This document shows positions 5,714 to 41,230 of a DNA stretch of 43,259 nt, piece by piece (the stretch's first letter is position 1; every line of letters begins with the position of its first letter). Source of the stretch: a virus. The translations under genes were made by a program, and so were the position numbers. Where the stretch lies: positions 1 to 43,259 of IMG/VR virus record IMGVR_UViG_3300009172_000012; one strand, 5' to 3'. The notes under the pieces were generated by a model, which saw nothing but the letters and a program-made list of their open reading frames with translations, searched no databases and was not told where the DNA came from.

Positions 5714-6351
5714 TATGCCTCTTCCAGAGATAGAGATATGTTCCAAAAATCAAAGGTGCTTGTCCCACGCTTTTCAACGCTGTAATTAAAGTCTGCAAAG
5801 AAGACTTCTACAATTTCATTATACTTATTCATATTGCTAAAGGCTGCTGCATCGTCTCCAAAATTCTTGTAGTTGTCATAAGCCAGGTATACCCAGAACG
5901 ACCCTTGGTGATTGTTGTACCAATCTAATATTTCTACACCCCCAGCTCCACCATCTGTAGTAAACTCTGCGGTAGTACCCTTGTATGGAGATACCCCTCC
6001 TGCCTCAGTGAAGCCAGCTAGGGTGTTGTATGCCCTGGATGGTAGCAGTGTCCAAGATGTGCTTATTGTTATCTTGTCTGCAATATGGTATGAGCGCATT
6101 CTTCCATTAATAGTTCTTTGTCTCTGCTCTATTCTTTCAGTGTTAATGCTGACTGGAGCACGATTGTCATCGGATAGAATTATAAATTGATTTAATAGTG
6201 TAGTGTCTGACTCCGCCGTTGCTGTTCCTACTTCAAGCCCGTCTGGCACATAGAAACCATTAACTAGGGTTCCAGGATTGTCGGCAAGGAGCATTCCCTG
6301 TGGCCTACCACGGGATCCCTGGCGTCCTAAAAGATAGTCTTTTGTTGCCAT
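5713..6351 (-). CDS. Distal-tail-like minor tail protein, 212 aa
   Basis: This gene lies directly after the tape measure and overlaps its stop by one base (TAATG). The protein is beta-rich and lacks a signal peptide. A central ISTSWTLLPSRAY segment and a C-terminal EVFFADFNYSVEKRG then DFWNISLSLEE pattern fit a structural beta-sandwich. In siphophages the gene after the tape measure commonly encodes the distal tail (Dit) protein joining the tube to the tip. I assign that role by position, not by a motif I can name. Its TAA stop also overlaps the next ATG by one base. Confidence 0.7.
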   Translation of the reverse strand: MATKDYLLGRQGSRGRPQGMLLADNPGTLVNGFYVPDGLEVGTATAESDTTLLNQFIILSDDNRAPVSINTERIEQRQRTINGRMRSYHIADKITISTSWTLLPSRAYNTLAGFTEAGGVSPYKGTTAEFTTDGGAGGVEILDWYNNHQGSFWVYLAYDNYKNFGDDAAAFSNMNKYNEIVEVFFADFNYSVEKRGTSTFDFWNISLSLEEA

Positions 6352-9300
6352 TAGAACTTGTTGCTCCTAATTCTTTGTGAGTCAATCTGCTTAATCTGAG
6401 TCATAACTGATCTAGCAATCTGGTCTGGGTTAGCATCTGATTTTACGCTTACGTTTACACTATAATTATACACTGATTCGCCTGCATATGTTCCGTTATT
6501 TATAGCCTTTAGGTTTTCAGTTCCGAAACTCTCTACCGCATACTTCTTAACTACGAACTCTCCTGGAGTAAGCATTGCTGGTACTGTGTCTGTGCCCATT
6601 GCATATCCACCAGAAGCAAAGTATTTCGGAACCATTCCGCCCATAGCGTATTTTGGAACCATACCACCCATAGCAAACTTGAGTCCTGTTGACTGCATCA
6701 GCTGAATGTTTTGCTTGGTTAGTGCGGCCTTTTGAGCTGCAGAGATATCTCCACCCCTAACGGAAGCACGATTAGCAAGCACAGTGTCTCTAACCTGGTT
6801 TGCAAAGTCTAGAGGAGAAGCCGCCTGACCCGACTTAACTGCAGCTATAGAAGAAGCTGCTGCTGTGTCTCTGTCTAGAACCGTTACGCCATCCGCACGG
6901 AAGACTGAAGTGGCAGCCTTATCCAATCCGCTGCCCTCGGTCGTTGGAGCCTTCATTCCAGTAAGCTTTTGAAGTAATGCCATTGCGTCTATTAGCATTT
7001 GCACATAGTCTTTACCACGCTGCATGGCTTCGTCAAAGGCTAGCTTGGCATCGTTATATGCCTCTTCCTCTAGAGCAATAGCGTCTAGTCTTAGCTGCTT
7101 TTCTTTGTCTAGTGCTTCTAAAACATACTCTTGCTCTTCTAGCTTCTTCTGTTGCTGGAAAAGCTGCACACTTTGTATTGCATATATCTGGTCTTCTAGT
7201 CCAATTATCTCAGCTAGCTTAACTTCCCTGAGCTGCTCATACGCATAGATCTGGTCTTGGATTGAAAGAATCTCAGCTTCGGTTGCTTTTTTCTGCTGCT
7301 CAAGTGCGAACACTGCCTGAGAGATTTCATACTGCCTCTCTTCAACCTGTACCCTGGTTAAACCAGAAGCTGTCTTTAGGCTTTCAATCTCTCGCTCTTG
7401 TGCCGTAGCTAGCTTATTCCTAGCATCTTCAGCTCTTTGAGCAGACTGCTTATCCTTAAGTTCTTTAGCCGCACGTGCCGCGCCAGCGATGTCTCCCTGG
7501 CTAAGGGCGTCAGCTATGTCAAGCTGGGAGCTTTGCTCGTCTGCTAGTTGCTGGTTTATTGAGAGAACCTTGTCCAGAGCTGCGGCTTGATCCTCATACT
7601 TATTGTTTATGGACTCAGTCAGCTTATCAATTATTGTCAGGTCATTAGATAGCACCGAGGACTCATCTTGAAGTGCAGACATTGGCCTGTCAGTGCTTAG
7701 CTCAAGAGATCTCTGTAGGTCAGATATTTCTTTCTGTAGAGCTTCAACTGGCCTGCTAATGCTCATTTCAATGTCGCGTTGCTTGTCGTCGATAGTGGTC
7801 TGTATGCTGTCTATTGACTTTTGAGTCTTTTCGATAGCATCATTTGTGGAATCTACAGCATCTTGTGCACTCTTTACTCTGTCTTGGAAGTCGTCATCTA
7901 CCCTGTCACGCCTGATGCCGAAGGACTCCATTGCTTGTCCATACAAGTTGTCAAACTCGCTCTGTATTCCTTCTGGGGTTGAAAGCTGTATCTTTAGACT
8001 TATCTTCTTGTCCTTCTCTATACCGTTAAGGTAGTCTCTGAGAAGCCTTGCATTTATCTGACCGTCTTCTAGGTCTTTAATGAATTCTTGTGCTAGGGCT
8101 GGGTTGGACAGAATGCCCTCGATCTGGTCTGCCTCATACCCCATCTTACCAAGAGTTTGAGCTACGTTTACGAAAGCGCTATTGAGTTCTCTAGCTGCTG
8201 CTTGCTCTTTTAGCAAACCCTTAATTGCATTACTGCGAGCCAGCGTATCTACCTGCTTTAAGAGGCCCACAAGCCTTTCCCAAGACTTTGTTCCAACCTT
8301 GGTTGTAGCTATTGCAGCAGCAAGTGCAGAGTCTTTGGCGGACTCAAAGGCTTGAGTTATGCTAAAGCCTTGCTGGCGGAGCTTATTGTAAGCAGAGTTG
8401 GTTTCCTGTAGCTGCTGCCTTTCTTCTTTAAGGCCTTCTATTGCTTTTTGGAATGGAGACTGCTGGTTGCCGCCAGAAGGTGCTCTAATCTTCTTTTCTA
8501 GATCCAAGATAGCTGACATAGTTTCCACAAACATATCGTAATCTTCTGCGCTCATGGCGGCTTTAGCGCCTGCCAAGAACGTGCTATTTCCAATTATGTC
8601 TAGGGCGTCTGAAACGCTTTGACCGTTTGAGGTCAGCCACGAAAGGACACTGTTCTGCTCTTCTAGGTCGGCTAGGTAAGTCTTCATGTCGGCTTGTCCA
8701 CGGACATCATTGACATCTTCTTCAGAAGCTGCTAGGTCTTTAAGCAAGGCAATAACGGAGTCATAGCTTGATGTGGTTCCAGCTGCTATGTCCTGTGCTT
8801 TTGCGTCTATAAGAAGCTGCCTAGTCTTTTCATCTGTCACTGCGGCAAGAGCTGCTTCTTCGTTGCCCAATGCTTCTAGCAGATCTGGATAAAGGTCTAC
8901 AATATCCTGATTTGCTGTTAACTGGTCGGTGATTGCTTCAGTAGAAAGGGCAATGGCTTCTTGTCTTTCAGTCTCTACGTCAACGGCGGAGGCTTCTGCA
9001 GTTATTCCGATTGCTTTGCCCAGTCTAACTTCAAGCTCAATAATCTTTGTCTGTAGCGCAGCCCTATCTTCTAGGGATGAATTAAAGTCGTCTCCAGCAG
9101 CTAGTATCTCAAAGTCTATTGGCTTAAGGCTAACCCCTGCTTGAATTGCTTCAAACAGTATAAGCTTATTGTTAATGTCATCTATGCCGTCTAGCTGCTT
9201 CTTGTCTACTCCGATATTTGCAAACATCTTTTCTAGCACTGTTCCAGCACTAGGCCCTAAAGAGTTTACGTTAGACAGAAGCTCTCCCACAAGACCGCTA

Positions 9301-12300
9301 TAGGCATCCGCACTTATAGTTCCAGAGCTAAACCCTGTGCTCAAGGTCTCAAAGAAGGATGAATACTCGGAGCCAAGGGCCTGAAGGTCTCCAACCATGT
9401 TGGTTGAGCCAGACATCCCGTCAAAGTTAAAGCTGTTATAGTTATCTAGGTTATAGTCGGCTATGCGGTTTAGTGTTGATTCGTAATCAGAAACTACCTT
9501 TTCAAAAGACTGCTCGGCAGCTGCTTGTATGTTGTCAAAAGTGTCTTCATTCCTAGGATCAAACTTTAATCCTATAGACAGGTCTATGCCTGTCTTTCCA
9601 GCCTCGGAAGCGATAGCCGCAACAAACTCCTGAATCCTAGCTGGATCTGTGCCCTCTGGAGATAGTGCGAGAAGCTCTATTACAAGGCCGTTAAGAGCCC
9701 TCTCGGCTTGGTCTCGTGTCGCATTTCTTATGTTTTGTATGTCTTCTTTAAAGCCACCGTCACTGGCAGACTTGTCCTTTAGGTCTGCAAACTCATCGCT
9801 GGTTCTAATTGCAGCTGCCCTAGCGGACCCTCCAGTTTCTAGACCTTGAACCGAATTTATTTGACTGCTTCTATCCACAGACCTCGTTGCCGCAAAGCCT
9901 ATCAGTCCTACTATTGAGTCAAGCTTCTTACCAGCTGCGAATGCTGCATTTCCCATACCTTCAATTTTTTGCTTTTGCTTTTCTTGAATGTCTCCGACAA
10001 TCTTGAAAGCAGCAAATGCGGTTAGCGCTACTCCTAGGAATGGAATAAACTTTAAGAATAGGGGAACGATCTTTCCTAGCACCCCACCCAAACTGCCTCC
10101 TACGGCAATGAGGTTACCGAAGCTGCTTTTTACTCCGCCAGAGAATACCTTGGTTACTCCAGCTAGGCCCTTAGCTCCTGCTATGGATGCCTTTATTGCA
10201 GCAGGTCCGCCCTTTGCAAAGTCAAGCAAGCTTTGTCCAGCCATCTGGCCTGCCATCTTTTTATAGAGAGCTATGATTAGTGGCAGGATGGCGCTGAGGG
10301 CAAACATGGCATTTGATATTCCAAACACGGCATCTTGCAAACCAGACATTTCTCCGCCTAGTCCGCTAGTAAGCATTGATATGCTGCTAAATGCGAAAGA
10401 AGCCTGCATGATTCCAGATGTCATTCCTTGCATAGACCTGGTAGAGTCTCCAGTAGCTTTTATAAGCTTTTTAGTCTTCATGTCATAGGCGTTGCCCTGC
10501 TTTGCACCAGATGAGACTAGGCCTAGACCAGTGGCATCTGCCCCCTGCATCCTTTGCCTTACACCAGCTGCATAAGCGTTTTGGTTAGTGGTCGATCTGC
10601 GCCCTGCGGGCATGTTGAATATTTGCTGAGATGCTGCTGAAGCTAGCTGTTGTCCTGCTGCGGCCATGTCGTCTTGACCACTTGCCAATCCTTGCTCAAG
10701 TCCAGCTACAAGGTTTTCTCCAGACCGAGATGTTCTCTTGGATGGAGACTGCATCTGTCCAGCTTTGTTGGTAGCATCTACCAGAGCTTTTTGATAAAAG
10801 TCATTTGCTTTTTTAACGTTTCTTTCTGCAGCTCGCTTAAGACCTGGGTTGGCTGACTTTATCTCTGCAACTTTGGTTACCGCAGTAGCTTGCTTAGCAA
10901 ATGCTGGAGATACTTGTTTAGACAACTCTGCATTAGACTCTAGCTTTTGCAAAAGCTTTTTTAGAACCTTTGCTTGAGTGTCCTGCTCGGCCTCTGTTAG
11001 GCTTAGACCTCTCGTGTACTTGTCCATCAGGGTGTCTATCTCTTGCTGAGACGTTCCCATCTCCAACATTGTATCTTTTATAGCTTTTTGGTTATTAGGA
11101 CTCCTAGAGACTGAGCCAGCGAATCTATTCTGAGCTCCTACCTCGGGCTGGAACAGTTGACTATTCCATCCTGCTTTTCCAACTTTCTTTTTGTCGACAT
11201 CTATTATGTGTGCCCTGTCAACTTGTGTTAAGTCTTTTATTTCTGCGTCTGAGAATACTGGGTTTTGACCTGCTTCAATCTTGGTCCTGTTTATCTCTTC
11301 GAGCTCTACCCTTAGCTTTTTGGCTACTGATAGCTGCTGCTCGTACTCCTTGACACCCTCAGCACCTCGCTCATCTGAAAGCTGAGTGCGAACCGAACGC
11401 TTCTCTCCAAACTTGCTAGCACTGTACTTTCTTTCTGTAGAGAATGACTCTGGCAACTTCTTTCCAGAATCTTTCGCTAGCGACCTGACTTTATTTACAA
11501 ACTCATCTTTTGTTACTTTAACGCTTGAGCTTAGCTCGTCAAAGGCTTGGTCAATTAGCTGAGGAGCATCTCTCAACTCTGCAACCAACTTTTCAATTGC
11601 CCTTAGGCTATTTAGATTTCCGACCTCTAGACTATTTCCGCCTGGGGATCTTAAAGTTCCTCCTGGTGTAGCCCCACGGCCCTTCTTGTACCCTGGGATA
11701 TCCCCAGCGACCATACCGTTAATAAGGCCTGCGTACCTTCGTGCCATGTCTTTTGGAATAACCGCTTCACCAGGCTCAAGCATTGCTGGAACCTTGTCTC
11801 CGCTGCCAGTACCTGGAACAGAAACAACTCCGGACTTATACTTTTTAACTGCTCCTCGGCCAATGTTGGTAGCCATTCCAGCGCCACCAAACTGCTGCTG
11901 CCTCTGTATTGCCTTACCGTATGCAGCTGTAAGTTTTTCTATGGCAGCTGCTTCGGATGTGAATGCCTGAGCAAGTCTATTATGAGTTTGTTCTAGAGAT
12001 GCTGCTACCGCCATTTCTTGCAGCTGCTTCTCGGTTAGGTAGTTTGTTTGCTCACCTAGAACTTGAGACTGTTTTCCAGTTTTTTGGAAGATGTTCATTA
12101 CTGCCACAAAACCCTTGATCAGGTTAGCAGCTCCGTTAGCTAGAAGACCAAATGTCATTAGGGCTACTGGACCGATTATGCCAAGGACTCCAACGAGTCC
12201 AGCTACGAATTTCTTAACCCCAACGTCTAGGTTATTGAATTTATCTATTACGTTTGTTGCAAAATCAACTAGAGGGGTAACTATCTGTAAGAACAGTTCT

Positions 12301-13835
12301 CCAATGGGCGCTATGGCAGCTTGTAGCCTCTCTACGGACCCTCTAAACTGGTTCATTGCAGAAGCTGCAGTCACTCCAAGCTCTTTCTCAGATATGCTTG
12401 CCAAATCTGCAGCAGAGTAGGCTGCTAGGTCTAGAACTCTGGCAGCTTGGGTGCCATCTTTGTTTATGTTTTCAAACAATGTAGACATGCGGGCAAACTG
12501 GAACTTGCCGAATAGCTGCTCAATGGCTCTTGACCTATTTAGTGGGTCAAGTGTGTCCATAGCATCTGCCAGATCTATAATAGTGCTCTTTACGTCTCCA
12601 GCATTTTTGTCTACGATATCAACTAGGTCAATTCCGAATCCCATGAATAGCTCTTTGGCTACCTTAGTTGGGTTGATTAGTCTACCCAAAGAGGACTTTA
12701 GTGCGTTAGCACCTTCGGATGCATTTACGCCACCCTCTTTCATTGCAGCAAGGAAGAATGCTAAGTCTTTTACGTCTCCACCAAGTGCCTGGATAACTGG
12801 GGCTACCTTTGGAATTGCGGTAGTTATGTCGTCAAGAGATATGACTGTCTGGTTTTCTACAGCGTTTAGGAAGTTTATGGAATCGGCTAGGTCTTCATTT
12901 GAAAGCTTGAACGCATTCTGCAAGGAGATTGTGGTTTCCAGTGCCTTCTGCTGATCTAGCTGACCAAGCACAGATATCTTTATGGCAGCAGATGTCTGAT
13001 TGATTAGGTCTTGTCCAGAGAATCCAGCTGCAGCTGCTTCGGCTGCTATACCTATGGTGTCTGATACAGCGATACCATATTTGGTAAATTCGTCAGCAAG
13101 GTCTCTAACATCATTCAGTGCCTTGTCGGACTCTGCACCTGTTGTGAAAAGATCTCCGTACACCTTCTTGAAGTCAATGACCTGTTGCTCAAGCTTCATG
13201 AATGTTTTTGCAGCGATACCGCCGAAGATTGCTAGGGGTAGTGTAAAACCAACCATGAGCTGTCGTCCAGCCCACTGTGTGTTCTTACCGAAGTTTAGAA
13301 GATTTGTAGAACCCTGCCTCAATAGCTGGTTCATTATTTGTTGCTTCTGGGCAGCTATCGCTGTCTTTGTTCCCAGATTATCCATGTCTAGGGTTAGTGG
13401 TCTAACCGCTACGGCCTTCATGGCTCCGCTGGCGTCGCGTCCAAGCTTCACATACTGAGTCTGGAGAGTCTTTACTCTTTCACGAGCAGTCTTTTCTATC
13501 GTTGATAGTTCGGACTTAAAGAATCTTCCAAAAGTTTTTGTGGAGGCTGCTGTGTGCCTGAAGTACTGCCCAAAGGATAGCTTGTTTTTTTCTAGTGAGC
13601 TTGTGAATGACTCGGATGAAGTCTGTATGCTTTGTATGCTGGCAGCAAACCTCCCAGAGGCGTTTACGCCGCTGAGAAGCTGCTGTGATAATTTGCCAGC
13701 TGCTGCAGACTGAGCTGCAGTACCTCGATTCATGGAGGTTTGGAACTGAGAGATCTGACTCTGGAGGCCTCTAATGGATGCTAAGGCACCAGACGTGTCA
13801 ACGTCTATCCTTATACTGGATTGTATATCAGCCAT
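6351..13835 (-). CDS. Tape measure protein, 2494 aa
   Basis: This is the longest gene in the window, placed after the tail chaperones as usual. The N-terminus (MADIQSSIRIDVDTSGALAS) is typical of TP901-type tape measures. Residues about 190-480 form the PhageMin_Tail-type core, with a hydrophobic stretch LPLAIFGGIAA followed by repeated helical segments. Further hydrophobic helices lie near residues 545-600 and 1170-1290. Residues about 1980-2250 are Gln/Glu/Lys-rich coiled coil. The motif VPAMLxPGE occurs twice, near residues 690 and 2420, the second followed by FVVKKYA. A Shine-Dalgarno-like AGAGGT precedes the ATG. The protein sets tail length; its size implies a very long tail. Confidence 0.96.
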   Translation of the reverse strand: MADIQSSIRIDVDTSGALASIRGLQSQISQFQTSMNRGTAAQSAAAGKLSQQLLSGVNASGRFAASIQSIQTSSESFTSSLEKNKLSFGQYFRHTAASTKTFGRFFKSELSTIEKTARERVKTLQTQYVKLGRDASGAMKAVAVRPLTLDMDNLGTKTAIAAQKQQIMNQLLRQGSTNLLNFGKNTQWAGRQLMVGFTLPLAIFGGIAAKTFMKLEQQVIDFKKVYGDLFTTGAESDKALNDVRDLADEFTKYGIAVSDTIGIAAEAAAAGFSGQDLINQTSAAIKISVLGQLDQQKALETTISLQNAFKLSNEDLADSINFLNAVENQTVISLDDITTAIPKVAPVIQALGGDVKDLAFFLAAMKEGGVNASEGANALKSSLGRLINPTKVAKELFMGFGIDLVDIVDKNAGDVKSTIIDLADAMDTLDPLNRSRAIEQLFGKFQFARMSTLFENINKDGTQAARVLDLAAYSAADLASISEKELGVTAASAMNQFRGSVERLQAAIAPIGELFLQIVTPLVDFATNVIDKFNNLDVGVKKFVAGLVGVLGIIGPVALMTFGLLANGAANLIKGFVAVMNIFQKTGKQSQVLGEQTNYLTEKQLQEMAVAASLEQTHNRLAQAFTSEAAAIEKLTAAYGKAIQRQQQFGGAGMATNIGRGAVKKYKSGVVSVPGTGSGDKVPAMLEPGEAVIPKDMARRYAGLINGMVAGDIPGYKKGRGATPGGTLRSPGGNSLEVGNLNSLRAIEKLVAELRDAPQLIDQAFDELSSSVKVTKDEFVNKVRSLAKDSGKKLPESFSTERKYSASKFGEKRSVRTQLSDERGAEGVKEYEQQLSVAKKLRVELEEINRTKIEAGQNPVFSDAEIKDLTQVDRAHIIDVDKKKVGKAGWNSQLFQPEVGAQNRFAGSVSRSPNNQKAIKDTMLEMGTSQQEIDTLMDKYTRGLSLTEAEQDTQAKVLKKLLQKLESNAELSKQVSPAFAKQATAVTKVAEIKSANPGLKRAAERNVKKANDFYQKALVDATNKAGQMQSPSKRTSRSGENLVAGLEQGLASGQDDMAAAGQQLASAASQQIFNMPAGRRSTTNQNAYAAGVRQRMQGADATGLGLVSSGAKQGNAYDMKTKKLIKATGDSTRSMQGMTSGIMQASFAFSSISMLTSGLGGEMSGLQDAVFGISNAMFALSAILPLIIALYKKMAGQMAGQSLLDFAKGGPAAIKASIAGAKGLAGVTKVFSGGVKSSFGNLIAVGGSLGGVLGKIVPLFLKFIPFLGVALTAFAAFKIVGDIQEKQKQKIEGMGNAAFAAGKKLDSIVGLIGFAATRSVDRSSQINSVQGLETGGSARAAAIRTSDEFADLKDKSASDGGFKEDIQNIRNATRDQAERALNGLVIELLALSPEGTDPARIQEFVAAIASEAGKTGIDLSIGLKFDPRNEDTFDNIQAAAEQSFEKVVSDYESTLNRIADYNLDNYNSFNFDGMSGSTNMVGDLQALGSEYSSFFETLSTGFSSGTISADAYSGLVGELLSNVNSLGPSAGTVLEKMFANIGVDKKQLDGIDDINNKLILFEAIQAGVSLKPIDFEILAAGDDFNSSLEDRAALQTKIIELEVRLGKAIGITAEASAVDVETERQEAIALSTEAITDQLTANQDIVDLYPDLLEALGNEEAALAAVTDEKTRQLLIDAKAQDIAAGTTSSYDSVIALLKDLAASEEDVNDVRGQADMKTYLADLEEQNSVLSWLTSNGQSVSDALDIIGNSTFLAGAKAAMSAEDYDMFVETMSAILDLEKKIRAPSGGNQQSPFQKAIEGLKEERQQLQETNSAYNKLRQQGFSITQAFESAKDSALAAAIATTKVGTKSWERLVGLLKQVDTLARSNAIKGLLKEQAAARELNSAFVNVAQTLGKMGYEADQIEGILSNPALAQEFIKDLEDGQINARLLRDYLNGIEKDKKISLKIQLSTPEGIQSEFDNLYGQAMESFGIRRDRVDDDFQDRVKSAQDAVDSTNDAIEKTQKSIDSIQTTIDDKQRDIEMSISRPVEALQKEISDLQRSLELSTDRPMSALQDESSVLSNDLTIIDKLTESINNKYEDQAAALDKVLSINQQLADEQSSQLDIADALSQGDIAGAARAAKELKDKQSAQRAEDARNKLATAQEREIESLKTASGLTRVQVEERQYEISQAVFALEQQKKATEAEILSIQDQIYAYEQLREVKLAEIIGLEDQIYAIQSVQLFQQQKKLEEQEYVLEALDKEKQLRLDAIALEEEAYNDAKLAFDEAMQRGKDYVQMLIDAMALLQKLTGMKAPTTEGSGLDKAATSVFRADGVTVLDRDTAAASSIAAVKSGQAASPLDFANQVRDTVLANRASVRGGDISAAQKAALTKQNIQLMQSTGLKFAMGGMVPKYAMGGMVPKYFASGGYAMGTDTVPAMLTPGEFVVKKYAVESFGTENLKAINNGTYAGESVYNYSVNVSVKSDANPDQIARSVMTQIKQIDSQRIRSNKF

Positions 13836-13859: not shown

Positions 13860-14183
13860 CTACTTAGCTATGTTGCCACCGACTGAAGCTTCTCCCATAT
13901 TAATACCCGATGCTACTTCTATAATTTTGTAAACTGTAGGTAGGTCTAGAACGTCTTCAAGTGCATCTAGGTCCTCAGCAAGTTCTGCCTTGTACTGTCG
14001 CATTGCAATTTGTACACATTCTATTAGGATGCTCATTGACTTGTCGTTATCATCTGCGACCTTAGAAATACTCTCAAATTTCTTCATAAAGCTACGTAGT
14101 AGCGATATCTTTAGCGGCCTTACTTGTATTTCTGTTCCGTCTATTAGCTTAATTGTCTTTTCTTCTGTGACTGTCGTAGCCAT
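13860..14183 (-). CDS. Tail assembly chaperone, short G-like form, 107 aa
   Basis: This small acidic helical protein lies just before the tape measure. Its whole length aligns with the N-terminal 95 residues of the neighbouring 231-aa protein: shared IDG.EI, PLKI, LR.FM, FE.I, EC..IAM.QY and DLPT.Y.I motifs, roughly 40-45% identity by eye. It is therefore the equivalent of lambda gpG, which coats the tape measure during tail assembly, but made from its own gene. It has its own extended -10 promoter (14219-14227) and a GAGAGGA Shine-Dalgarno. It ends with SVGGNIAK and has no T-like extension. Confidence 0.85.
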   Translation of the reverse strand: MATTVTEEKTIKLIDGTEIQVRPLKISLLRSFMKKFESISKVADDNDKSMSILIECVQIAMRQYKAELAEDLDALEDVLDLPTVYKIIEVASGINMGEASVGGNIAK

Positions 14184-14218
14184 TGTTTCCTCTCAAATAA
14201 CCTTAGTTGGTCTTTACA

Positions 14219-14227
14219 ATTATAACA
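14219..14227 (-). promoter_or_regulatory. Extended -10 promoter of the G-like chaperone and tape measure
   Basis: TGTTATAAT follows the stop of the GT-like gene; a leader with GAGAGGA precedes the ATG at 14183. A TTGACA 22 bases further up lies in coding sequence at wrong spacing. Confidence 0.75.
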
Positions 14228-14237
14228 TACAAGGTGT

Positions 14238-14933
14238 CTATTTTTTTGTCAAATCCTGATAGTCTAGGCCCATTCCAATGCCAAAGCCAGCGTTTTGAGC
14301 GTTTATGCCCTGAAGAGAAGTTATATCGTTAGGATCGCTTGTTTTTCCTCCAGAGAATACCCTTGCCTTCATAGCTTCCCAAGGATCTGGCCCCTTGTTT
14401 CCAGACTGCTCATCTAGATCTACGCCCTGTATTGCTGCTAAGAACTTTTTCTCTTGGTACTCAGAGTCTCTCTTGGCTTCAATTATGGCGATAAGCTCTG
14501 GCATAGAAATATGAGATTCCAGATCTTCGTAGTCTTTCCATATACCCAACAAAAAGGCTTCTGACTCCAGGCCTGCAAGGTCTAGAGTCTCCCATGAACC
14601 ACCATCTTCTTCTTTCTTGTTCTTTGATACAGATTTTTTATCGGGCTTGCTGGTGCTAATGCCAGCTGAAATATCTAAAATCTCATATAGCGTCGGTAGG
14701 TCAAAGCTATCCTCGACGTCTTCGTCTGTTTTTATTATAGGGTGGTATTGCTTCATTGCAATCTTTATGCACTCTACCATTGCCGACATTGCATCGTCAT
14801 CATTTTTCGCTAGCTTGATGTTTTCAAAAATATCCATAAACTGTCTAAGGTATTTTATTTTAAGTGGGGTGATGTGTATCTCATCTCCATCTATTGTGTG
14901 GAGGTACTTAGACTCATATATTTTGGTTGCCAT
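14238..14933 (-). CDS. Tail assembly chaperone, long GT-like form, 231 aa
   Basis: Residues 1-95 are paralogous to the downstream 107-aa chaperone. A charged Lys/Glu linker follows (about 96-115: SKPDKKSVSKNKKEEDGG), then a C-terminal domain with ALIAIIEAKRD-like helices and an end rich in Gly and Asn. This matches the shape of a gpGT fusion (tail-coat G part plus tape-binding T part), yet it is one uninterrupted reading frame, so no frameshift is required. No Shine-Dalgarno is visible; TATACT sits 6 bases before the ATG, pointing to a leaderless mRNA. A strong terminator lies immediately upstream. Confidence 0.85.
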   Translation of the reverse strand: MATKIYESKYLHTIDGDEIHITPLKIKYLRQFMDIFENIKLAKNDDDAMSAMVECIKIAMKQYHPIIKTDEDVEDSFDLPTLYEILDISAGISTSKPDKKSVSKNKKEEDGGSWETLDLAGLESEAFLLGIWKDYEDLESHISMPELIAIIEAKRDSEYQEKKFLAAIQGVDLDEQSGNKGPDPWEAMKARVFSGGKTSDPNDITSLQGINAQNAGFGIGMGLDYQDLTKK

Positions 14934-14939
14934 TAGTAT

Positions 14940-14948
14940 AGTATACCA
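14940..14948 (-). promoter_or_regulatory. Extended -10, leaderless GT-like chaperone gene
   Basis: TGGTATACT ends six bases before the ATG at 14933. Its first T is the last T of the terminator tract. Confidence 0.75.
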
Positions 14949-14952
14949 AAAA

Positions 14953-14988
14953 GAATGCCACCCCGATCAAAAGACTGGGGTGGCACTC
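14953..14988 (-). terminator. Terminator after the major tail gene
   Basis: GAGTGCCACCCC and GGGGTGGCATTC form a 12-pair stem with one G-U around a 12-base loop, followed by TTTTT. The T run leads straight into TGGTATACT. Confidence 0.9.
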
Positions 14989-15013
14989 TAGTTATTTAGT
15001 TATTGGTTAGCGA

Positions 15014-15634
15014 TTAGCTTACCTGGTTGACTGTACGATCTACAATCTTACCGTAGGAAGCTGCGTCGTTTGGAAGCAAGCGGAAGCTTACCTCAAACAT
15101 TGTCGACTCGTCTCGCTTTGCAGATACTGTAACATTCTCAATTGAGAGTGCACGGTATGCAACGTAGACGCGCTCGATGCCTGCTCCAGCTGCTCCAGAA
15201 CCTGGACCAACAGCGACAAGACCACGCTCAAGTGGTACTTCTCCGATGTCACCTGCGGACAGGTTCATCTCTTTGTTTCCAGCTACTGTAGTTAGATCTG
15301 TGCTTTTTCCAGCTAGGGAGTAAAGCAAGTTCTCTAGTGTTGACTCAGCAAAAGCAGTGTTCAGGTTAACCTGCATACCCTGCTTGTATAGCTTTGCAAC
15401 GTCAAGAACCTGGTCTACCTGTACCTCGCCAAAGTCGGGCTGGAAAACAATTTCCAGACCATTCATAGTGTAACCAACATTTCTGAAGTCTACGTCGTCG
15501 GACAGTGTTGTCGTAAACGCCTCATCTTCAACGTATGCTGGTAGGTCAGCGTCTGTTAGAGTTCCTGCTTCATATGTAAATAGTGCTGCTGCACCAACAA
15601 TGATATTAGAACTTGAACCACGTGTATATGCCAT
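15014..15634 (-). CDS. Major tail tube protein, 206 aa
   Basis: Position (after tail-completion genes, before chaperones and tape measure), length and composition fit the siphophage tail tube subunit. The protein is beta-rich with the pattern VGYTMNGLEIVFQPDFGEVQVDQ in its first third and an ALSIENVTVSAKRDESTMFEVSFRLLP end typical of tube proteins that stack as hexameric rings. It has a strong GAGGTGA Shine-Dalgarno six bases before the ATG, a 50-base leader, two extended -10 boxes upstream, and a strong terminator downstream. It is thus an independently transcribed unit suited to high expression. Confidence 0.88.
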   Translation of the reverse strand: MAYTRGSSSNIIVGAAALFTYEAGTLTDADLPAYVEDEAFTTTLSDDVDFRNVGYTMNGLEIVFQPDFGEVQVDQVLDVAKLYKQGMQVNLNTAFAESTLENLLYSLAGKSTDLTTVAGNKEMNLSAGDIGEVPLERGLVAVGPGSGAAGAGIERVYVAYRALSIENVTVSAKRDESTMFEVSFRLLPNDAASYGKIVDRTVNQVS

Positions 15635-15686: not shown

Positions 15687-15714
15687 ATTATAGCAGTCTT
15701 TTGATATTATATCA
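15687..15714 (-). promoter_or_regulatory. Two extended -10 boxes of the major tail gene
   Basis: TGATATAAT (15714-15706, sharing the TGA stop of the preceding gene) and TGCTATAAT (15695-15687). They precede a leader of about 50 bases ending with GAGGTGA. Confidence 0.75.
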
Positions 15715-16293
15715 TAGCGATTGGTCATTATTTGTTAAGTCTGGCATCTGGTGATACTTGTAATCAATGATTATTTTATTACCACCAAATGTTCTAGTTG
15801 TTCCAAAATCTATTACGTCACGGACCTCTTCTAGCTGGTACACCTTAAAGGTGTGAAAGTAAAACTTGTTTGTAACGTTTATGGGTGACTGCTCTGTTCC
15901 GACATTAATAGCACCCTTGTTTTTTGCCCAAAGGTTTATTTCTTCTGCTGTTTCATCTTCACGATCCATCATCCTGAGCAGGTGCTCCTGAACCTGAATC
16001 ATCTTTTCCGTAGCATTTTCTTGAGTAGCATAAAAATAGTATAGGACTTGCTCGTCCTTTATGTGTGGGAACGGAGACCTTCTCATTCTAAACATCCTAT
16101 CCCAAGTTGACATCACGCCTGAGTAGGGATAGATATTGCCATTAACGGTCATGTACTGCTCTGTTAAATCTTCTATGTTTGAAGGTCTAGATGGGAAGAA
16201 TGGTACTCCTATTCCAGAACTTACAGTCGCAAGCTTTTCTTGTATGTAACTATTTATCCAAAGTATTGGTGTGTTTAATAATGATTCTGTCAT
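15712..16293 (-). CDS. Tail terminator-like neck protein, 193 aa
   Basis: The gene overlaps the upstream stop by four bases (ATGA) and is the last of the neck operon before the major tail gene, the usual place of the tail terminator. The sequence has helical N-terminal half (WINSYIQEKLATV; QENATEKMIQVQEHLLRMM) and a beta-rich C-terminal part (KFYFHTFKVYQLEEVRD). This alpha/beta layout fits tail terminator proteins that cap the growing tube, but I recognise no signature residue. Its TGA stop forms part of a TGATATAAT promoter element. Confidence 0.65.
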   Translation of the reverse strand: MTESLLNTPILWINSYIQEKLATVSSGIGVPFFPSRPSNIEDLTEQYMTVNGNIYPYSGVMSTWDRMFRMRRSPFPHIKDEQVLYYFYATQENATEKMIQVQEHLLRMMDREDETAEEINLWAKNKGAINVGTEQSPINVTNKFYFHTFKVYQLEEVRDVIDFGTTRTFGGNKIIIDYKYHQMPDLTNNDQSL

Positions 16294-41221: not shown

Positions 41222-41230
41222 ATTATAACA
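41222..41230 (-). promoter_or_regulatory. Extended -10, leaderless 134-aa gene
   Basis: TGTTATAAT, with TATAAT at 41227-41222, ends seven bases before the ATG at 41214. No -35 and no Shine-Dalgarno are visible. Confidence 0.75.

Follow-up and report, generated by a model that had tools for sequence, protein, structure and literature searches.

Tail assembly chaperones of described phages

Few recoding events in phages are as conserved as the frameshift that yields the tail assembly chaperones G and GT, and the ratio of both products matters for assembly of the lambda tail. In lambda, gpG and gpGT are made from one gene by low-level -1 frameshifting at a ratio of about 30:1 (PMC5009743). In some T4-like phages, as summarized in PMC10885494, a short gene and a fused long gene replace frameshifting (Vladimirov, Gautam and Davidson, 2022, doi 10.1016/j.virol.2021.11.003), and to the extent of this summary the principle of a short and a fused long gene is already known from T4-like phages. 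For the Microbacterium phages of cluster EA, a fused long form with a duplicate short form is not described in the passage of PMC7302621 considered here. No other siphophage with such a pair was found in the open-licence literature.

The window analyzed here, i.e., the whole stretch of DNA, is the 43,259-base IMG/VR virus contig IMGVR_UViG_3300009172_000012. Its two chaperone genes, GT and G2, resemble lambda gpG/gpGT, HK97 and other siphophage G/GT loci in their position between tube and tape measure genes and in encoding G and G+T products. Unlike lambda, GT and G2 are two genes and have no conserved slippery site. They share with the T4-like chaperones, as far as these are summarized, a separate short gene and an in-frame fused long gene with no frameshift judging by sequence; this likeness is one of arrangement, and no membership in the T4-like family is claimed. 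New here is a second case of the principle, found in a siphophage-like lineage whose start signals are conserved and whose sister clade has retained frameshifting. In addition to lineage and sister clade, the proximity to Streptomyces phages and the nature of the signals, leaderless and Shine-Dalgarno, distinguish it from the T4-like case in its summarized form.

Of the named phages, Streptomyces phages of the Stanwilliamsviridae (Targaryen, StarPlatinum, Mandalore) are the closest relatives. They have homologous G, T, tube and tape measure proteins in identical order, and their chaperone homologues are annotated as tail assembly chaperone. Unlike the window, they possess a single G ORF, T is an open frame overlapping G in the -1 frame, and G2 is absent. 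The overlaps (L003:2785-2845, L004:2785-2845 and L005:2758-2851) are open in the -1 frame without a canonical slippery heptamer, and all three loci have GACCCGGAA in common where the sister clade of the fused lineage has GGGAAAC. The G and T ORFs of these phages are mostly annotated as separate genes; an unusual type of frameshift may therefore have escaped annotation.

Layout of the locus and family assignment

The minus strand of the window holds a siphophage-like late region, as judged from ORFs and profile matches, with the gene order portal, head protease, major capsid, adaptor-like genes, major tail protein, GT, G2 and tape measure protein. The position of GT and G2 between the major tail protein and tape measure genes is the same in the window and in relatives. 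The major tail protein gene (15014..15634, minus strand) matches PHROG 2175 and PHROG 885, and its Streptomyces phage homologue is annotated as major tail protein. The tape measure protein gene (6351..13835, minus strand) encodes 2494 aa and matches PHROG 10030, tail length tape measure protein, with an E-value of 2e-105. The major tail protein is the presumed partner of the T domain and the tape measure protein that of the G domain.

GT (14238..14933, minus strand) encodes 231 aa as an in-frame G+T fusion. According to the original prediction, which was made from the letters alone, this gene holds a G-like domain, a charged linker and a T-like domain in one frame, and this is borne out by the ORF coordinates and by profile searches against tail chaperone families, in which PHROG 10504 matches residues 1-112 (E 2.9e-18) and PHROG 10474 residues 131-191 (E 7.8e-14). 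Together with the AlphaFold2 model, a 44-row alignment places the G domain at residues 1 to about 96, a variable and charged linker at about 97-112 and the T domain at 113-231. One open frame runs through all three parts; a lambda-type T overlapping G in a shifted frame is absent from GT and present in the sister clade. G2 (13860..14183, minus strand), which follows GT, encodes a separate short chaperone of 107 aa, a paralogue with the G domain only, that also matches PHROG 10504 (E 2.3e-21). The G domains of GT and G2 share 47% identity over 95 aa (E 2e-29), by which the short and the long product have the N-terminal domain in common. The paralogy had been predicted and stands, while the identity of 40-45% guessed by eye was too low. 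Divergence at the three codon positions of G2 is 0.27/0.18/0.57, therefore G2 is under purifying selection.

Tblastn searches against Streptomyces phages gave E-values down to 8e-30, with matches mostly annotated as tail assembly chaperone. Pfam returned no usable match for GT or G2. No relative of GT was found in bacterial and archaeal genomes, so no host is named. In the phage collection searched GT had no match closer than 60% identity, and those named phages of the collection that were examined are frameshift-type. AlphaFold2 models were built from 44-row alignments and reached a mean pLDDT of 64.8 for GT (about 82 over the G domain) and 76.3 for G2. Both modelled G domains contain two strands and four main helices in the same order, as expected for the G-domain homologues that had been postulated. 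In the PDB, the GT model matched the HK97 tail assembly chaperone 2OB9 best, although weakly (Z 5.0, next unrelated row 3.7); for the G2 model, 2OB9 is likewise a weak match, at Foldseek rank 1 (E 0.45, probability 0.60) and in second place after re-alignment (Z 4.5). Among viral models, tail assembly chaperones account for many of the named matches and for the best named match of GT as well as of G2. The structure matches are weak alone, but they are consistent with sequence and position, and sequence comparison supports GT and G2 as members of tail-assembly-chaperone families.

Fused and frameshift-type loci among relatives

Searches of viral contigs yielded 214 IMG/VR loci; some of these overlap, being pieces of the same contigs. 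The window and three Streptomyces phages were added and the loci were classified by frame, three remaining loci being cut by contig ends. GT followed by G2 occurs in 138 loci including the window (100 distinct after removal of duplicates), and a single G with T in the -1 frame and without G2 in 77 loci including the three Streptomyces phages (35 distinct). Mixed loci were absent among these 138 and 77, and none of the 138 fused loci lacks G2. The pair, for which a survey of related phages had been suggested, thus recurs, and its recurrence in about 100 distinct loci confirms that layout and signals are real and not due to chance. A GT fusion might also be an artefact of one wrong base in the assembly or sequencing of a frameshift-type locus, as a single indel could join the frames, but this is supported by no tool result, and the 100 distinct fused loci come from many datasets, carry G2 in each case and form one clade. 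The probability of this explanation is close to nil, and sequencing error as cause of the fusion is ruled out by this recurrence.

An in-phase slippery heptamer is found in 32/32 distinct non-Streptomyces frameshift-type loci (26 GGGAAAC, 4 CCCAAAC, 1 GGGAAAT and 1 CCCAAAT), located at the same codon near the end of G or at most one codon away. The site G_GGA_AAC of the sister clade is like that of lambda. The frameshift-type loci L104-L108 have CCCAAAC replacing GGGAAAC and sit on a long basal branch of the frameshift clade. In the fused genes, any heptamer in the linker was detected in 13/100 loci, these being of seven kinds, and no slippery site is shared among the 100 distinct loci. A stretch of dual use is expected to conserve synonymous sites. 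In frameshift-type G, synonymous sites are most conserved in the G/T overlap, at codons 99-111, whereas the linker of fused GT shows no such peak. The claim that the frameshift has been replaced in the fused genes appears to hold at the sequence level: a conserved slippery site is absent from them, and a slippery site is present in each distinct IMG/VR locus of the sister clade.

It could be argued that GT still yields a short form by recoding, i.e., by slippage of -1 or +1 onto a nearby stop similar to dnaX, with G2 as an additional and partly redundant copy. In the window, GT codon 228 is the site of an in-phase A_AAA_AAA, and some relatives contain scattered heptamers, yet codon 228 lies three codons from the GT stop, which makes a product of the size of G impossible, the scattered heptamers occupy no common position, and the fused linker varies in length and sequence. 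The lack of a synonymous-site peak in the fused linker, compared to the peak in the frameshift-type overlap, also counts against recoding, and G2, being present in every fused locus, does not look dispensable. This explanation is considered very improbable.

Start signals of GT and G2

An intrinsic terminator hairpin followed by a T run (TTCTTTTT; 14952..14989, minus strand) is located between the major tail protein gene and GT. The 66-nt stretch at this site folds at -30.0 kcal/mol, and a hairpin with z < -2 precedes GT in 97/99 fused loci (median -23.5 kcal/mol). Before G2 a hairpin of z < -2 is present in 6/99 fused loci, and the GT-G2 gap has no terminator. An extended -10 box, TGGTATACT (14940..14948, minus strand), ends 6 nt before the GT ATG, from which a leaderless transcript is predicted. 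An abutting -10 box, defined as at least 5/6 matches located 0-10 nt before the ATG, is found at GT in 98/99 fused loci, and a Shine-Dalgarno sequence (match of at least four bases) before GT in 0/99. As controls, 3/94 major tail protein genes, 2/92 tape measure genes and 152/1,980 shuffles (7.7%) have an abutting -10 box. The feature is not unique to GT, as 38/91 fused loci show it for the upstream gene, which encodes 193 aa in the window.

This 193-aa gene (window 15712-16293), upstream of the major tail protein gene, may be a second leaderless gene. On the minus strand of the window, many late genes are immediately preceded by extended -10 boxes (TGn plus TATAAT or TATACT), at positions 41230, 37753, 31387, 29774, 18925, 15714, 15695, 14948 and 14227, that at 41230 likewise near an ATG; the phage therefore seems to use many single-gene promoters.

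The 54-nt gap between GT and G2 contains the extended -10 box TGTTATAAT (14219..14227, minus strand) of a putative G2 promoter, and the Shine-Dalgarno sequence GAGAGGA (14188..14194, minus strand) precedes the G2 ATG. Each of these two signals recurs upstream of G2 in 99/99 fused loci, the -10 box at a distance of 18-45 nt and the Shine-Dalgarno sequence with a match of at least four bases, and a start pattern like that of G2 precedes frameshift-type G in 35/35 loci. That each gene has its own promoter, GT a leaderless one and G2 one with a Shine-Dalgarno sequence, agrees with the original prediction, in so far as the respective patterns recur in 98/99 and 99/99 fused loci. In one locus (L176:4376-5156), an ORF similar to class I methyltransferases (motif VLELGCGSGND) is inserted between GT and G2. 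Despite the inserted gene, G2 retains its own -10 box and Shine-Dalgarno sequence there, as expected of an independent unit, and this is counted in favor of such a unit.

Evolution of the two-gene arrangement

A tree of four neighboring genes (1,171 columns) was calculated for 44 fused and 24 frameshift-type representatives with the Streptomyces phages outside. In this tree, the fused loci form one clade (93), the frameshift-type loci form the sister clade (92) and the outgroup of Streptomyces phages is of the frameshift type. Frameshifting is therefore most simply the older state, and the sequences point to a single change from frameshifting to duplication plus fusion. The similarity of GT and G2 is 0.407 within the same genome and 0.405 between different genomes, therefore the duplication is old and the copies have not been homogenised since.

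It was attempted to date the duplication on the G-domain tree of 98 columns, which failed: G2 groups with frameshift-type G, GT stands apart on long branches, and an AU test did not reject GT and G2 as one clade (p 0.26). The T tree gave no resolution either. An early duplication is possible, the frameshift clade having then lost the first copy.

The G domains of GT evolve faster than G2, with a mean identity of 53% compared to 69%, and the GT G domain is less conserved in 924/946 genome pairs. GT also differs at residues that are fixed in G2 and frameshift-type G, such as R22, S27, L28, N46 and S49. These differences would fit a split of function in which G2 is the tape-measure chaperone and GT mainly a chaperone of the tube protein, with a G domain that no longer coats the tape measure. 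However, GT retains the invariant P23, L24, K25 and F36 and the same secondary structure, and a minor subunit is also expected to change faster. Such a split is judged unlikely, and it and the main explanation given below are not mutually exclusive.

Proposed mechanism and implications

The preferred reading, with a probability of roughly 0.84, is that GT and G2 are the long and short chaperones, equivalent to lambda gpGT and gpG, that they originate from a duplicated frameshift locus and that their ratio is most likely set at initiation. The start sites, the protein ratio and the binding to tape measure and tube proteins we infer from sequence. An ancestral G/T frameshift locus would have been duplicated, G and T being joined in frame to form GT in one copy and only G being kept as G2 in the other. 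With a terminator closing the major tail gene and a promoter of its own, GT would then be transcribed as a leaderless mRNA, and a second promoter inside the unit, together with the Shine-Dalgarno leader, would give more G2. G2 would also be carried on GT read-through transcripts, and since such transcripts include G2 with no terminator in between, G2 mRNA should be at least as abundant as GT mRNA. Two initiation events would thereby replace the frameshift ratio, with the short form exceeding the long form. By analogy to lambda, from which both steps are taken (PMC5009743), many G2 and few GT molecules would coat the tape measure protein via their G domains and T would recruit the tail tube protein.

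Under this mechanism, control of the short-to-long ratio would have moved from elongation to initiation. Leaderless and led mRNAs differ in their response to the state of the ribosome pool, and for this reason the ratio, and with it tail assembly, could be sensitive to growth or stress of the host. We put this forward tentatively; for a ratio set by frameshifting such sensitivity is less likely.

For annotation, a short gene after a fused chaperone is not to be treated as a stray ORF, and an absent slippery site need not mean that a frameshift was overlooked. How initiation signals may rebuild a ratio that is otherwise based on elongation is suggested by the conserved terminator and by the conserved leaderless and Shine-Dalgarno promoters. 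The sister clades have homologous proteins and the same gene order and differ in just the step of frameshifting versus two genes, therefore it becomes testable whether slippage itself is needed or only the ratio it provides. The swap between the frameshift and the two-gene method is thus visible within one virus family.
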